Shown here: positions 5,481 through 11,720 of the stretch, in pieces
Position numbering within the stretch: position 1 is the stretch's first letter
How the letters are laid out: each line of letters begins with the position of its first letter
Assembly: GCF_023612255.1 (NCBI RefSeq)
Contig: NZ_CP063231.1
Span: 1,532,001-1,596,000, forward strand
Reading direction: 5' to 3'
DNA from: Luteibacter flocculans
GTDB lineage: Bacteria; Pseudomonadota; Gammaproteobacteria; Xanthomonadales; Rhodanobacteraceae
Length of the DNA: 64,000 nt
Translations under genes and position numbers: made by a program
The notes under the pieces: model-generated
The model's database searches: none
The model's input: only the letters and a program-made list of their open reading frames with translations
Told to the model about the DNA's origin: nothing

Positions 5481-6223
5481 GCGAGACGTGGATTGTCGGC
5501 ATCAATCCGGTCGAGGGTGCACTCGCCAACGATCCGGATCGTGTCCGTGAAGTATTGATAGAGCAGAACTCCAAGAACGCGCGCGTGAACGAGATCGCCG
5601 CGCAGGCCCGCAAGCTGGGCTTGCCGGTGAAACCGGTGGGCAAGGAGCAACTGGAGAAGCTCGGTGGCGAAGCACGCCACCAAGGCGTGATCGCACGCTA
5701 TGAAACACCGCCGCTGCGCAGTGAGAACGATCTTCCCGCGCTGCTCGATGCGGCGGGCAGTGACGCACTCGTGTTGGTGCTCGATGGTGTGACCGATCCG
5801 CACAACCTCGGTGCCTGCCTGCGCAGCGCTGCGGCAGCTAAGGTCACGGCGGTCGTCGTGCCGAAGGATCGCGCCGTGGGCATCACGCCTACCGTACGTC
5901 GTGCCTCGGCGGGCGGCGCCGATCTCGTTCCGGTGATTGCGGCGACGAATCTCGCTCGTGCGCTGCGTCTGCTCAAGGACGCTGGCGTGTGGATCACCGG
6001 ATTGGATGGCGATACCCAGCAGTCCATCTACGACATCGACCTCAAGGGGCCCATCGCGTTGGTGATGGGCAGCGAGGGCGATGGCATGCGCCGCTTGACC
6101 CGCGACACATGCGATTTCGTGGCGAAGATCCCGATGCCCGGCAACATGGAAAGCCTCAACGTGTCCGTGGCGACTGGTGTCGTTCTGTTCGAGGCGTTGC
6201 GTCAGCGAGGAGGAGCACGATGA
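5477..6223 (+). CDS. rlmB: 23S rRNA (guanosine-2251-2'-O)-methyltransferase RlmB
   Basis: RlmB is a SpoU/TrmH-class enzyme that methylates the ribose of G2251 in the peptidyl-transferase P loop of 23S rRNA, using S-adenosylmethionine. The 248-residue length fits the family. The N-terminal substrate-binding domain (GINPVEGAL onward) is followed by the knotted catalytic domain, with LDGVTDPHNLGACLRSA, LVMGSEGDGM and MESLNVSVA as SAM-binding motifs. The ATG overlaps the rnr stop as ATGA, and the rnr-rlmB pairing is conserved in many gammaproteobacteria, so the two are translationally coupled. Confidence 0.95.
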   Translation: MSETWIVGINPVEGALANDPDRVREVLIEQNSKNARVNEIAAQARKLGLPVKPVGKEQLEKLGGEARHQGVIARYETPPLRSENDLPALLDAAGSDALVLVLDGVTDPHNLGACLRSAAAAKVTAVVVPKDRAVGITPTVRRASAGGADLVPVIAATNLARALRLLKDAGVWITGLDGDTQQSIYDIDLKGPIALVMGSEGDGMRRLTRDTCDFVAKIPMPGNMESLNVSVATGVVLFEALRQRGGAR

Positions 6224-6492
6224 ACCTGTTCTGGCACGACTGGGCCGGTCTGATCGGCGTAACCCTGGTCTTGATCGCGTTCTTCCTTTTGCAGGCGCAT
6301 AAGCTTTCAGGGCAGGGGTATCCCTATCAGGTGATGAACCTGCTGGGCGCGTTTGGCATTCTTCTGTCGCTGATCTTCGGCACGTTCAACCTGTCGGCAT
6401 TCCTGCAGGAAATGGCTTGGTTTCTCATCAGCGTGTACGGCATCGTCCGTGGCGTACGGTTGCGCCGCGCGGCGACCGTCATCCCGCCCTGA
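6220..6492 (+). CDS. Small membrane protein (CBU_0592-like)
   Basis: This 90-residue protein is almost entirely hydrophobic, with three likely transmembrane segments at about residues 9-25, 38-58 and 62-80 and a short Arg-rich cytoplasmic tail. The pattern of a short tryptophan-containing N-terminus and LGAFGILLSL matches the small CBU_0592-type membrane proteins as I remember them; no biochemical role is known to me. The ATG at 6220 overlaps the rlmB stop as ATGA and is preceded by a strong GAGGAGGA ribosome site, so it belongs to the rnr-rlmB operon. Confidence 0.75.
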   Translation: MNLFWHDWAGLIGVTLVLIAFFLLQAHKLSGQGYPYQVMNLLGAFGILLSLIFGTFNLSAFLQEMAWFLISVYGIVRGVRLRRAATVIPP

Positions 6493-6529
6493 ACGGCGCG
6501 CCACCGATACGCCATCGATAAACTGACAC

Positions 6530-6554
6530 GCGGGCCGGCGCCATGCCGGCCCGC
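6530..6554 (+). other. GC-rich hairpin before the riboswitch
   Basis: The 9-base arms GCGGGCCGG and CCGGCCCGC flank a 7-base loop. It sits between the end of the rlmB operon and the guanidine-II element. It has no T-run, so it is either a weak terminator of the upstream operon or the 5' end of the riboswitch leader. Confidence 0.45.
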
Positions 6555-6555
6555 T

Positions 6556-6603
6556 CGGAAGGACGACCTTCCGTATGCCTTCTCTCCGCGGGGACGACCC
6601 CGC
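6556..6603 (+). promoter_or_regulatory. Guanidine-II riboswitch (mini-ykkC)
   Basis: Two hairpins both carry the ACGA loop that defines mini-ykkC RNAs. Hairpin 1 (6556-6573) is a perfect 7-base-pair stem, CGGAAGG-ACGA-CCTTCCG. Hairpin 2 (6588-6603) is a perfect 6-base-pair stem, GCGGGG-ACGA-CCCCGC. Both have the conserved GGACGACC core. The linker is 14 bases, and the GGAG ribosome site of the next gene (6610-6613) starts seven bases after hairpin 2. In known examples guanidinium docks the two loops together and exposes the ribosome site, turning on the exporter gene; that mechanism is taken from the family. Confidence 0.93.
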
Positions 6604-6620
6604 CCTGGCGGAGCCATGTC

Positions 6621-6935
6621 ATGTACTGGATGATTCTTTTTCTAGCCGGTCTTTTCGAGATCGGCTGGGCCGTCGGCCTGAAATACACCGAGGGATTCAC
6701 CCGCTGGTGGCCGAGCGTACTCACGGTGCTGGCTATGATCGTCAGCATCGTTCTGCTGGCTGTTGCCACCAAGAAGCTGCCGCTGGGCACTGCTTATGCG
6801 GTGTGGACCGGCATCGGTGCGGTGGGCGCGGTGACGCTCGGTATCGTGCTGTTCGGCGAATCGGCCCAGCCGTTGCGGCTGCTTTGCGTCGGGTTGATCG
6901 TGGCGGGCATCGTGGGCCTGAAGCTCACCGCCTGA
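6621..6935 (+). CDS. gdx: Guanidinium exporter (SMR family, SugE/Gdx type)
   Basis: This 104-residue protein has the four transmembrane helices of the small multidrug resistance family. Its N-terminus includes the conserved membrane glutamate in [15 protein letters not shown], followed by [14 protein letters not shown] and [11 protein letters not shown], very close to E. coli SugE. The Gdx subtype exports guanidinium in exchange for protons as a dual-topology dimer. The preceding guanidine-II riboswitch supports guanidinium rather than quaternary ammonium as the natural substrate. The start at 6621 is chosen because GGAG lies seven bases upstream and because the riboswitch must lie outside the coding region. 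Confidence 0.95.
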
Positions 6936-6996
6936 TTCAGCGGCGTCGAGCGAGTGGTGCGGCGAGCGCACGGTTGCGGGCATGTCGCCCACTTGC

Positions 6997-7070
6997 CTCG
7001 CCGCCATGGAGGCTCCTACAACGTTAGCGCGTGAGCCGCCATTTCATTGTGGGAGCCGCCATGGCGACGA
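6997..7070. repeat. REP/BIME cluster B
   Basis: An inverted REP unit (about 6997-7020, with GCCGCCATGG) and a forward unit (7049-7070, GGAGCCGCCATGGCG) sit tail to tail between the convergent genes gdx and phoU. They could form a hairpin that ends both transcripts; no other terminator is visible here. Confidence 0.75.
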
Positions 7071-7123
7071 GGCAATCTCGCGCAGGCAGTGATCCTCCGC
7101 CGCTGGAACGGTTCTACGACGGA

Positions 7124-7837
7124 CTACTTGCCGAAATCCGGGTTTGCAGTGGTGTCGCGCTTGGCGCGCGGCGCCACCAGCGGCTCACCGTGCACGACGA
7201 ACCACACGTTCTCCGCGATGTTCGTGGCGTGGTCGCCGATGCGCTCGATGTTCTTCGCCATGAACAGCAGGTGCGTGCACGGCGTGATATTGCGCGGATC
7301 TTCCATCATGTAGGTGAGGAGAGCGCGGAATACAACCGTATAGGCCTCGTCGAGGTCCGCATCGGACTTCCATACTTCGTACGCTGCCTCGGCATCCTGG
7401 TCGTTATAGGCCTTGAGCACGTTGCGAAGCTGGTCCGCCGCGAGTTCGGCGAGGTTGGCGAGACCACCGGCGGCGGTGATCGGCGCCACGCGGCTGAGCG
7501 GGATGGACCGCTTGGCGACGTTGGCGGCGTAGTCGCCGATGCGTTCGATGTCGGCGGCGATGCGCAACGCGGCGAACACGTTGCGCAGGTCGCCCGCGAT
7601 CGGAGCGCGCAGGGCCAGCAGACGAACCACGTCCTGGCTGATTTCCTGCTCCAGGGCGTCGATGGCGTCGTCGTTGTCGACCACGCGCTGGGCGGCGCGT
7701 TCGTCGCGGCGCTCCACGACGTCGATGGCGGCTTCGAGCTGCGCGACGGCGAGTTCGCCCATCCGGACGATCTCGCCGGTGAGGCGCTTCAGTTCGTCGT
7801 CGTAGCTCTTGATGATGTGCTGGTGCGTGTTGTTCAT
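7124..7837 (-). CDS. phoU: Phosphate signalling protein PhoU
   Basis: PhoU links the Pst phosphate transporter to the PhoR sensor kinase and represses the Pho regulon when phosphate is plentiful. The 237-residue protein has the two repeated three-helix PhoU domains, with metal-binding motifs of the ExxxD type in ADIERIGDYAANVAK and MAKNIERIGDHATNIAE. It is the last gene of pstSCAB-phoU, 22 bases after pstB. A GAGG ribosome site precedes its ATG. Confidence 0.96.
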   Translation of the reverse strand: MNNTHQHIIKSYDDELKRLTGEIVRMGELAVAQLEAAIDVVERRDERAAQRVVDNDDAIDALEQEISQDVVRLLALRAPIAGDLRNVFAALRIAADIERIGDYAANVAKRSIPLSRVAPITAAGGLANLAELAADQLRNVLKAYNDQDAEAAYEVWKSDADLDEAYTVVFRALLTYMMEDPRNITPCTHLLFMAKNIERIGDHATNIAENVWFVVHGEPLVAPRAKRDTTANPDFGK

Positions 7838-7859
7838 CGCTTGCCTCGGAATCGGGGGC

Positions 7860-8693
7860 TTAGCCGAAACGGCCGGTGATGTAGTCTTCCGTCTGCTTCT
7901 TGTCCGGCTTGGTGAAGATCTTTTCGGTCCGGTCGAACTCGATCAGCTCGCCCATGTACATGAAGGCGGTCATGTCCGAGCAGCGTGCGGCCTGCTGCAT
8001 GTTGTGGGTCACGATCACGATCGTGAAGTCCCGCTTCAGTTCTTCCACCAGTTGCTCGATGCGGCTGGTGGCGATGGGATCGAGCGCGGAGGTCGGTTCG
8101 TCGAGCAGCAGGACCTCAGGCCGCAGCGCAATGCCGCGGGCGATGCACAAGCGCTGCTGCTGGCCGCCGGACAGGCCTAGCGCGCTTTGCTTCAGCTTGT
8201 CCTTCACCTCGTCCCACAGGGCCGCGCTGCGCAGCGCTTGCTCGACGCGACTTTCCATGTCGGCGCGCGAGAGCTTCTCGTGATGGCGGATGCCGTAGGC
8301 CACGTTCTCGAAGATCGTCATCGGGAAGGGCACGGGCTTCTGGAACACCATGCCGACCTTGCTGCGCAGACGGTTCAGCGAGTACTTCGGATCGAGGATG
8401 TTCTCGCCGTCGAGCATGATCTCGCCGCTGGCGCGCAGGCCCGGGTAGATCGCATAGATGCGGTTGAAGATGCGCAGCAGGGTGGACTTGCCGCAACCGG
8501 ACGGACCGATGATCGCCGTGACCTGCTTCTCCGGAACGTCGAGCGAAATGTGCTTCAACGCATGGAAGTCGCCGTAGTGGAAGTTGACGTCGCGCGCGGT
8601 CATCTTCGCCGGCACCTGGCCAAGGTCCACGCCCGAGGCGTGGGGCGACGTGCCGAAGCCCGGCTTGGCGGCCACTTCGTTCATGTTAGTCAT
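7860..8693 (-). CDS. pstB: Phosphate ABC transporter ATP-binding protein PstB
   Basis: PstB is the ATPase subunit that powers high-affinity phosphate import. The 277-residue protein shows Walker [10 protein letters not shown], the signature LSGGQQQRL, Walker [12 protein letters not shown] and the switch histidine in [13 protein letters not shown]. It has an N-terminal extension of about 30 residues before the ABC domain compared with E. coli. Its start overlaps the pstA stop by eight bases, indicating coupled translation. Confidence 0.97.
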
Positions 8694-9555
8694 GGGACAC
8701 CTTGGAACGCGAGAAGATAAGGCGGGCGATAAGGCTGAGCGCCAGCACGAACATGGTAAGCACGAAGGCGCCGGCCCAGGCGAGCGTGTTGATGTCGGGA
8801 CTCGGATCCTTCGTGTACTCGTAGATCACCTGCGGCAGGCTCGGCATCTTGTCCAGCGGGTTGAAAGTCATGAAGTTGTTGCCGAACGCCGTGAATAGCA
8901 GCGGAGCGGTCTCGCCACTGATGCGCGCGAGGGCCAGCAGCACGCCGGTGACGATGCCCGAGCGTGCGGCACGGATCAGGATCTGCGTGGTGAGCTTCCA
9001 CTGCGGGACGCCGAGGGAGAGCGCGGCTTCGCGCAGGGTGCCGGGCACCAGGCGCAGCATCTCGTCGGTGGTACGCACGATAACGGGCAGGGCGATCAGG
9101 GCGAGCGCCACGCCGCCAGCGAGACCCGAGAAGGTGACTTCGCCGTGAGTGAGGTACTGCGACGGCAGCACCACGATCGTGTAGACGAACAAACCGAGCA
9201 CGATGGACGGAGCGGACAGCAGGATGTCGTTGAGGAAGCGGATCGTCGGGCCGAGGCGAGAACGGCGGGAATACTCCGCCAGCCATGTGCCGGCCGCGAC
9301 GCCGATCGGCGTGGCGATGAGGATGCCCAGCACATTGAGGATCAGGCTGCCCACCATGGCGTTGGCCAGGCCTCCCTCCTCACGGTAGGCGGTGATCTTG
9401 GTGAAGAGCTGCGGCCTTAGCGCGGCGATACCCTGGCTCAAGGTCTCCCAGAGAATCCAGGCAAGGAAGAGCAGGCCAACGCCCGTGGCCGCGATGCTCA
9501 GCGTCATGGCCAGAATGTTCTTGATCCGGCGCTTGGTGTAGAGCGAAGCAGACAT
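8686..9555 (-). CDS. pstA: Phosphate ABC transporter permease PstA
   Basis: PstA is one of the two membrane subunits of the Pst phosphate importer. The 289-residue protein has six predicted transmembrane helices and the cytoplasmic EAA-type loop in [19 protein letters not shown], which contacts PstB. The ATG at 9555 overlaps the pstC stop as TGATG. A longer upstream reading in the same frame runs inside pstC and is not credible. Confidence 0.95.
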
Positions 9556-10586
9556 CAGCGGCCCTCCTTGGTGGCGAGGCGGCGGAGCATGAGTCGCGCG
9601 ATGAGGAGCACGATGAACGTCACTACGAAGAGCAGGAAGGCCAGCGCCATCAGCGAGGAGCGCTGCAGCCCCTGCGCTTCGCCGAACTGGTTGGCGATGG
9701 TAGAAGCGATGGAGCTGCCGGTCTCGAGGAAGGAGAGCGAGAACTTGAAGGTGTTGCCGAGCACGAAGGCGACGGCCATCGTTTCGCCGAGCGCTCGGCC
9801 GAGACCGAGAAACACGCCGCCGATGACGGCAGTACGTGTGTAAGGCACCACGATGTCCCAGACCACTTCCCACGTGCTGGAGCCGAGCGCATAGGCCGAC
9901 TCCTTGAGACGCGTCGGCACCGTCTGGAACACCTCGCGCATCACGGAGGAGATGAAGGGGATGATCATCACGGCGAGCACGAGGCCCGCTGTGAGCACGC
10001 CGGCACCGAAGAAAGGGTATTCGCTGGAGAAGAACTTGGCGATCCCCGGCACGTGCTGGACCAGCCACGACACCTTGCCGTCGGGTGGATCGGCGCTGAA
10101 GTTGTTCATCAGCCACGGCTTGATGTGCTCCGCGACGAAGGGCGCGAAGATGAAGAGACCCCACATGCCGTAGATGATCGAGGGAATGCCGGCCAGCAGT
10201 TCGATGGCCGAGGCGACGGGACCGCGCAGCCATTGCGGTGCGATCTCAGTCAGAAAGAGGGCGATGCCGAAGCTGATCGGCACGGCGACCACGAGGGCGA
10301 TCAACGCGGTACCGACGGTCCCCATGATGGGTACCAGCGCACCGTACTGGTCGTTGCTCGGGTCCCAGGCGGCGCTGGTCAGGAAGCCCCAGCCGAATGT
10401 GCGGAACGCGTCCTGGCCGAGCCAGAGCGTCGAGCCCGCCGCACCGACGAGAGACAGAAGCACGAGAAGGGCGCAGACCTTCAGTACCGCACCGAAGACG
10501 CGATCGTTGCGCGAGTCCCGGGCATTGCGGGCCGCCTCGACGGATCGATCGGGGGCCGTCATGGCATTGCTGGCGGTGGCATGCAT
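9555..10586 (-). CDS. pstC: Phosphate ABC transporter permease PstC
   Basis: PstC pairs with PstA to form the phosphate channel. The 343-residue protein has a cytoplasmic N-terminus of about 35 residues, then six transmembrane helices with a periplasmic loop in the first half and the EAA loop LKESAYALGSSTWEVVWDI. It lies between pstS and pstA; the gap to pstS is about 115 bases. Confidence 0.95.
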   Translation of the reverse strand: MHATASNAMTAPDRSVEAARNARDSRNDRVFGAVLKVCALLVLLSLVGAAGSTLWLGQDAFRTFGWGFLTSAAWDPSNDQYGALVPIMGTVGTALIALVVAVPISFGIALFLTEIAPQWLRGPVASAIELLAGIPSIIYGMWGLFIFAPFVAEHIKPWLMNNFSADPPDGKVSWLVQHVPGIAKFFSSEYPFFGAGVLTAGLVLAVMIIPFISSVMREVFQTVPTRLKESAYALGSSTWEVVWDIVVPYTRTAVIGGVFLGLGRALGETMAVAFVLGNTFKFSLSFLETGSSIASTIANQFGEAQGLQRSSLMALAFLLFVVTFIVLLIARLMLRRLATKEGR

Positions 10587-10703
10587 GGTGGATGCGGTTT
10601 CCGAGGCCTGGGCAAACTGTGGGTCGCCGCTCCCTGCGGAACGGCGACCCCCTTTTACGACAGTCTGGACCGGAAGTATTTCACCGGCCGGACAGATCGG
10701 CGA

Positions 10704-11720
10704 TTACTTGAAATCGGAAGCCCAGTAAGCCTGGATCTTCTGCGTCAGGGCCGGCGGCAGCGCGACGTAGTCGAGCGAGGCGGCGTCGCCCTGACCCTTG
10801 TCGAACGCGTACTTGAAGAAGTCGAAAGCGACCTTCGTGTGCGACGCGTTCTTGGACTTCTTGTACATGATGATCCAGGTGGTGGCGGTGATCGGCCACG
10901 CCTGGTCGCCCGAAGCGTTCGTCATGATGAGGTTGAAGTCCTTGGCCGAGGCCCAGTCAGCCGTGGCGGCTGCGGCAGCGAAGGTCTCTGCGGTCGGCTC
11001 CACCCACTTGCCGGCGGCGTTCTGCATCTGCGCGTAGGAGATGCTGTTCTTCTTGGCGTAGGCGTACTCGACGTAGCCGATCGAGCCCGGGATCTGGCGG
11101 ACGTACTGCGAGACGCCCTCGTTGCCCTTGCCACCCACGCCGGTCGGCCAGTCGACGGCCGTGCCGAACTTCACCTTCGACGCCCATTCCGGGCTGACCT
11201 TCGACAGGTAGTTGGTGAAGTTGAACGAGGTGCCCGAGCCATCCGAACGATGCACGACGGTGACCTTGACGTCCGGGAGCTTGAGGCCCGGATTCGCGGC
11301 GGCGATGGCCGGGTCGCTCCAGCGGGCGATCTTGCCCATGAAGATATCGGCAAGCAGCGGACCCGTGAGCTTGAGCTCGCCGGCCTTGACGCCCTGGAGG
11401 TTCACGACCGGCACGATGCCGCCCACGACGCTCGGGAACTGACCGAGACCGAACTTGGTGAGGTCTTCGCTGCTCATCGGCGCGTCGGAGGCGCCGAAGT
11501 CGATGGTGCCCTCCTTGATCTGCGCGATACCCGCGCCCGAGCCCACGGACTGGTAGTTGATCTTGTTACCCGTCGTCTCGGCGTACTTCGCCGACCACTT
11601 GGACAGGACGGGATAGACGAAGCTCGAACCGGCACCGGTGATGTCGGTGGCCTGCGCGGCAGAGATGCCGAACAGCGAGGCAGCGACCAGCGCGGCAATG
11701 CGGAGTTTGCGTGTGAACAC
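10704..11720 (-). CDS. pstS: Phosphate-binding protein PstS
   Basis: PstS is the periplasmic phosphate receptor that delivers ligand to PstCAB. The 338-residue protein begins with a clear signal peptide (residues 1-24, ending ISAAQA). Phosphate-contacting motifs are visible in ITGAGSSFVYPVLSKW, GASDAPMSSEDL and HRSDGSGTSFNFTNYL. It is the first and presumably most abundant product of the operon, and the candidate Pho box about 90 bases upstream fits induction by phosphate starvation. Confidence 0.97.
   Translation of the reverse strand: MFTRKLRIAALVAASLFGISAAQATDITGAGSSFVYPVLSKWSAKYAETTGNKINYQSVGSGAGIAQIKEGTIDFGASDAPMSSEDLTKFGLGQFPSVVGGIVPVVNLQGVKAGELKLTGPLLADIFMGKIARWSDPAIAAANPGLKLPDVKVTVVHRSDGSGTSFNFTNYLSKVSPEWASKVKFGTAVDWPTGVGGKGNEGVSQYVRQIPGSIGYVEYAYAKKNSISYAQMQNAAGKWVEPTAETFAAAAATADWASAKDFNLIMTNASGDQAWPITATTWIIMYKKSKNASHTKVAFDFFKYAFDKGQGDAASLDYVALPPALTQKIQAYWASDFK

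Follow-up and report, generated by a model that had tools for sequence, protein, structure and literature searches.

The combination of a guanidine riboswitch and a Gdx pump is well established (PMC12186494). In the published model of the Guanidine-II class, the linker between the P1 and P2 hairpins holds an anti-Shine-Dalgarno sequence, and the RNA acts as a translational ON switch (PMC9300104, PMC9094411, PMC12186494). The length of this linker ranges from 7 to 40 nt (PMC7544219). Whether P1 and P2 dock with each other in a single molecule has been questioned (PMC9300104), and such intramolecular docking is supported by smFRET (PMC9094411). Among the pumps, the structure 6WK5 is that of Gdx-Clo, and W16 is conserved in Gdx proteins, whereas Qac proteins have Gly or Ala at this place (PMC7695847). 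Gdx proteins also give resistance to some quaternary ammonium compounds (PMC12186494), and E. coli Gdx exports Cs+ with low affinity (PMC13064478).

We analyzed a 64,000-nt stretch of the Luteibacter flocculans genome, referred to here as the window. An initial annotation had proposed that it contains two ACGA-loop hairpins with GGACGACC cores, a 14-nt linker, and a Shine-Dalgarno (SD) site, and we found all of these in the sequence (Table 1). The SD, which had been placed seven bases past hairpin 2, follows it by six or seven bases, depending on the P2 end chosen. The Rfam model RF01068 (Guanidine-II), named in the same annotation as the way to check the element, matched the window at 6555-6602 (+) with 46.9 bits, well over the curated cut-off of 32, and the match covered all 48 model positions (1-48). 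The E-value was 3.7e-6 when the 64 kb of the window were searched with 4227 families. When RF01068 was run over the complete genome, a single contig of 4,299,254 bases, it gave one match (E 5.8e-8). Guanidine-I (RF00442) had no match anywhere in the host genome, and the search for guanidine classes besides I and II covered the window. The region 6525-6640 also folds better than expected by chance (z -3.75), with 1 of 200 shuffles equally good. Thus, the sequence features expected of a mini-ykkC element are present, namely, the RF01068 score, ACGR loops, an anti-SD linker within the range of 7 to 40 nt (14 nt here), and association with a small multidrug resistance (SMR) gene. We concluded that the core finding of a riboswitch and a pump is correct and mostly ordinary: the locus adds one more instance of a pairing that is well known.

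Table 1. Features of the gdx leader and gene in the window
Feature	Positions	Strand	Description
Putative -10 box TAAACT of the gdx promoter	6519-6524	+	Aligned with TANAAT-like hexamers of other Luteibacter leaders
P0	6530-6554	+	10-bp hairpin, GCGGGCCGGC / loop GCCAU / GCCGGCCCGC; one base 5' of P1
P1 hairpin of Guanidine-II	6556-6573	+	7 bp, ACGA loop 6563-6566; RF01068 match
P1-P2 linker	6574-6587	+	14 nt by sequence; RF01068 consensus linker likewise 14
Anti-Shine-Dalgarno CTCCGC	6584-6589	+	Exact complement of 6608-6613; last two bases are the first two of P2
P2 hairpin of Guanidine-II	6588-6603	+	6 bp, ACGA loop 6594-6597; RF01068 match
Shine-Dalgarno region GCGGAG	6608-6613	+	GGAG at 6610-6613; 7 nt 5' of the start codon; from sequence
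gdx (sugE-type), predicted guanidinium exporter, SMR family	6621-6935	+	104-aa ORF; PF00893, NF008512

The gene behind the switch starts at codon 6621-6623. We found that its product matches the SMR family PF00893 with 102.2 bits (cut-off 23.7) and that the host genome has no other PF00893 match. The NCBIfam model for SugE, NF008512, scored 143.7 bits (cut-off 126). The name of this model, "quaternary ammonium compound efflux SMR transporter SugE," bears out the remark in the initial annotation that such genes are usually labeled quaternary ammonium resistance. That name, together with the resistance to quaternary ammonium compounds and the Cs+ export reported for Gdx proteins, could be read to mean that a Qac-type drug exporter stands here by chance behind a guanidine switch, so that the substrate prediction is wrong. 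We consider this very improbable. The SugE model is over its cut-off, whereas the 20 further SMR models listed for this protein, EmrE and Qac among them, are all under theirs. Among solved structures, 6wk5 is the nearest (E 1e-31), closely followed by 8vxu (4.2e-31), which is almost identical to it; EmrE comes next at 1.5e-11, some 20 orders of magnitude behind Gdx-Clo. W16 is present, as are the other Gdx residues E13, S42, Y59, and W62. The SugE model, the nearest structure, and W16 thus agree with the earlier assignment to the Gdx type, and guanidinium export is the best substrate prediction for this protein. For Luteibacter, the pairing of switch and gene thus replaces a label that misleads, quaternary ammonium efflux, with one that can be tested, guanidinium export.

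We then compared the locus across 149 genomes, that is, the window's own and those of relatives. RF01068 matched in 48 of them at E <= 0.001, and 47 of these matches were over the cut-off. An SMR coding sequence, located by tblastn, lies 3' of the aptamer at 47 of the 48 loci and begins 63 to 126 nt past the aptamer start. These 47 gdx loci include one whose RF01068 score, 30.2 bits, is under the cut-off of 32 (G100). At the remaining locus (L040 in G131), three RF01068 matches overlap in 30-base tandem repeats, and no SMR match was found in 1.9 kb; we rejected it as a switch, and the family model apparently gave a false positive here. The upstream side holds rlmB at 37 of the 47 gdx loci, and phoU lies on the downstream side at 36 of them; for 18 of the 48 loci, the sequence covered was 600 bases upstream plus about 1.2 kb downstream of the aptamer. 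The kept rlmB/phoU neighborhood speaks for a vertically inherited chromosomal gene. A gene for a small CBU_0592-family membrane protein (NF047864, 97.8 bits) occupies 6220-6492 in the window and overlaps the rlmB stop codon by ATGA. Of the 47 gdx loci, 36 carry such a gene in the interval from rlmB to the switch. On the minus strand, phoU (identified by TIGR02135) and pst-type phosphate transport genes, the latter named from their translations alone, occupy 7124-11720 and run towards gdx.

Within Luteibacter, RF01068 matched in 22 of 23 genomes. In the 23rd (G015), it missed the switch even at E <= 1. We found that this genome nonetheless has P0, P1, P2, and gdx, with a linker of 67 bases (L078 1414-1480, minus strand). 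A piece of this linker, AAGAGCGCTTCTACA, has 16 matches in the genome at no more than one mismatch, versus 2 for a reversed-pattern control. This recurrence suggests that a dispersed repeat may have inserted into the linker.

We aligned the 22 Luteibacter leaders (alignment A1) and scored the helices for compensating changes. P1 shows both-sided changes in six of eight pairs. P2 is paired in 98.5% of cells, and four of its six pairs are invariant. Taken jointly, P1 and P2 have a covariation score of 0.329 and 35 double-change cells, versus 8.5 in shuffles. On a tree, parsimony assigns 33 changes to P1, of which 26 lead from one paired state to another and 22 are both-sided.

The initial annotation mentioned neither the hairpin P0 nor the exact complementarity of the linker and the SD. 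A partition function calculation on the window leader gives a probability of 1.0 for pairing between the SD core and the linker, and this value is still 0.97 with both aptamer hairpins enforced. The outer two pairs of P2 occupy 6588-6589, so a full P2 and a full six-pair SD helix are mutually exclusive by two pairs. CTCCGC and GCGGAG are both exact in 15 of the 22 Luteibacter leaders. Across the 22 leaders, the linker-SD helix is paired in 92.2% of cells, with covariation absent. The predicted SD core-linker pairing exceeds a probability of 0.5 in 8 of the 22 when they fold freely and in 5 when the aptamer hairpins are enforced; several leaders are predicted to pair the SD core better with bases that follow the SD on its 3' side.

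We consider it very probable that this riboswitch is a translational ON switch for gdx, with P0 standing ahead of P1. Ligand binding, docking, the direction of control, and transport are taken here from published work on relatives. According to this model, without guanidinium the linker CUCCGC (6584-6589) would pair with the SD GCGGAG (6608-6613) and block ribosome entry. Guanidinium bound at the ACGA loops would cause P1 and P2 to dock, P2 would take 6588-6589 into its full stem, and the docked geometry would draw the linker off and free the SD. Gdx would then be made and would move guanidinium out in exchange for protons. P0, the conserved extra hairpin before P1 near the predicted mRNA 5' end, would probably stabilize the leader or stack on P1.

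Alternatively, Rho-dependent termination within the leader might be the main means of controlling gdx, and SD exposure would then play a lesser part. This is what work on E. coli sugE would favor: the predominant 3' end there lies 76 nt past the transcription start site, readthrough is significant with bicyclomycin, and the activity of a sugE fusion rises more than 2-fold in a rho mutant (PMC7815308). Given this premature termination in E. coli, control may not be purely translational here either. Nevertheless, anti-SD and SD are exactly complementary in the window leader and are predicted to pair, and we think it unlikely that Rho is the main route.

P0 is the part of the leader that may be new. 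P0 lies between the putative -10 box and P1, near the predicted mRNA 5' end. None of the Rfam families matched 6530-6554 over its cut-off, the best being CC0196 (16.8 bits, cut-off 35, E 0.078). In the window, P0 folds with a z of -5.1, and in 20 of the 22 genus loci it is in the best 5% of shuffles (L010 and L026 miss). We scored nine homologous P0 pairs in A1. They are paired in 95.9% of cells, show both-sided changes in seven of the nine pairs, and have 24 double-change cells versus 4.8 in shuffles. The covariation score is 0.483, compared with a maximum of 0.145 when the partners are slid. In 7 of the 22 leaders, the outermost of the nine pairs is unpaired. We also placed the changes on a tree built from rlmB, phoU, and smr, using one parsimony reconstruction. 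Of 31 changes in P0 pairs, 27 went from paired to paired and 14 were both-sided, while a control with P0 slid by one column gave 0 double changes between paired states. The loop reads GCAAN in 20 of the 22 leaders; that of the window is GCCAU, and that of L010 is altered. In G015, the loop is GCAAU. The one-base spacing between P0 and P1 is ungapped in 22 of 22 rows.

To search for P0 elsewhere, we built a model of the -10 box plus P0 (R1) from 21 of the 22 leaders, whose own matches are by construction; L010, with its altered P0, was omitted. A further alignment, A3, was not used for the model because four of its other-genus rows looked misaligned in the lower stem. With R1, 22 of the 23 Luteibacter genomes gave a match with an E-value no higher than 8e-7, always at the gdx leader. 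The 22 genomes include G015, which lies outside the R1 alignment. In the genome with the altered P0 (G012, locus L010), R1 gave only a weak match, on another contig than gdx. In the 149 genomes, we found no match away from gdx at E <1e-6, and the other matches listed range from E 2.4e-4 to 0.01. We could therefore reject the idea that P0 is a repeat scattered through the genome, as 22 of the 23 Luteibacter genomes have one match at E <1e-6, at gdx.

The sequence ahead of P0 has promoter-like features. A -10-like hexamer lies 3 to 14 nt before P0 in 21 of the 22 loci, versus 0 of 22 in a control interval 43 to 54 nt before P0. A consensus promoter with a -35 box was not found at 6450-7150. In Luteibacter relatives (for example, L003 and L007), the hexamers GGTCAG and GGTTAC lie five bases apart, ten bases before the -10 and about 60 before P1. 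The pattern GGTYAS-N5-GGTYAS-N10-TANNNT has 17 matches in the 23 genomes, and all 17 are at gdx; a reversed-pattern control gave 2. Both hexamers occur once in each of the 17, and either can come first; L010 and L022, which are sisters on the tree, differ in this order. The window's own genome has no match to the pattern. This direct repeat is possibly an activator site.

Could P0 lie outside the RNA leader altogether, as a DNA operator or as a transcription terminator belonging to the preceding gene? It is intergenic and a strong, G+C-rich inverted repeat, and, judged by eye, some other genera have inverted repeats around the upstream stop codon. The position of P0 3' of a -10-like box in 21 of the 22 loci speaks against this explanation, as does the finding that R1 detects gdx leaders alone at E <1e-6 in 149 genomes. 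We also found no terminator-like site with a T-run at 6450-7150. The compensating stem changes and the near-fixed loop would not be expected of an operator with fixed half-sites. A terminator or operator is thus distinctly unlikely. Instead, these data suggest that P0 is a lineage-specific, covarying third hairpin and that the leader is a variant of the known Guanidine-II kind.

We next looked for P0 outside Luteibacter. Of 25 gdx loci from other genera, seven have a hairpin at the P0 place that ranks within the best 5% of shuffles (L021, L023, L036, L039, L041, L044, and L045), and five of the seven have GCAAN loops by eye. R1 found four of them (14.4 to 18.4 bits, E 0.008 to 0.11 in 56 kb) and missed L023, L039, and L044. 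We also took the best 80 of at least 571 named Gdx-like loci. Among these 80, the Luteibacter locus was the sole convincing R1 match, and the other match scored 14.3 bits. Of the 44 non-Luteibacter named loci, 3 had an upstream hairpin that ranked within the best 5% of shuffles, as expected by chance, and we rejected P0 as a general feature of Guanidine-II. The idea that P1 is the 5'-terminal hairpin elsewhere fared no better, with a -10-like box 3 to 14 nt before P1 in 2 of the 44 non-Luteibacter loci versus 3 of the 44 in the control. Together, the R1 and shuffle results suggest that P0 is proper to Luteibacter, with a weaker form in certain further genera of the same family.

The place of P0 suggests what its role might be. 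If TAAACT/TANAAT is the -10 box, P0 begins at about the expected start of RNA polymerase. We favor the view that it acts as a 5'-end stabilizer, as a coaxial stack on P1, or as both. A GNRA-like loop is stable in itself. The near-fixed loop appears to ask for more than a stem, and it may be self-stable or bound by something. Several other roles were considered and rejected. As a fold insulator, P0 makes little difference in silico: with and without it, the mean pairing is 0.77 and 0.79 for P1, 0.51 and 0.53 for P2, and 0.25 and 0.24 for the anti-SD, and the unpaired share of the SD is 0.13 and 0.15. Single leaders, L006 and L029, do shift when P0 is removed. Compensation between the loop GCAA and a UUGC near the SD was dismissed by eye, since the loop is fixed and the other side varies. 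P0 also contains an ATG (6543) that is in frame with gdx and could begin an upstream ORF; this reading was likewise set aside by eye, as the ATG of relatives hinges on the variable loop base.

It is possible, and we offer it only tentatively, that Luteibacter has a three-hairpin form of Guanidine-II, in which P0 stacks on P1 and the GCAAN loop contacts an RNA receptor or a protein, tuning docking, leader stability, or Rho access. If so, P0-P1-P2 would be the regulatory unit in Luteibacter, in place of the two-hairpin aptamer known from the class. Two studies of the linked aptamer used P1-linker-P2 constructs (PMC9300104, PMC9094411). If P0 works with the aptamer, these leaders would offer a natural test of how 5' context affects the P1-P2 docking that has been questioned in print. 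In the open-access literature, we found no report of a hairpin upstream of a guanidine riboswitch, nor of guanidine-II in Luteibacter or in work on riboswitches of Xanthomonadales; two 2017 papers, on class validation and structure, lie outside this scope.

The locus can be set beside three known systems. The Guanidine-I riboswitch has a fold that differs from that of Guanidine-II. It shares the ligand and often the kind of gene it controls (RF00442; PMC12186494). The pump is like Gdx-Clo and E. coli Gdx (SugE) in its length of 104 aa and in having the same E13, W16, S42, Y59, and W62, and it aligns with Gdx-Clo without gaps over residues 1 to 103 (E 1e-31), with no notable sequence difference. 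The closest relative of the leader is the E. coli sugE/gdx Guanidine-II element, with which it shares two ACGR-loop hairpins with GGACGACC cores, a short anti-SD linker, and an SMR gene directly 3'. In contrast to the E. coli element, the Luteibacter leader has an extra hairpin, P0, before P1, with a GCAAN loop in most cases, and this hairpin falls outside the 48-position Rfam model of Guanidine-II.
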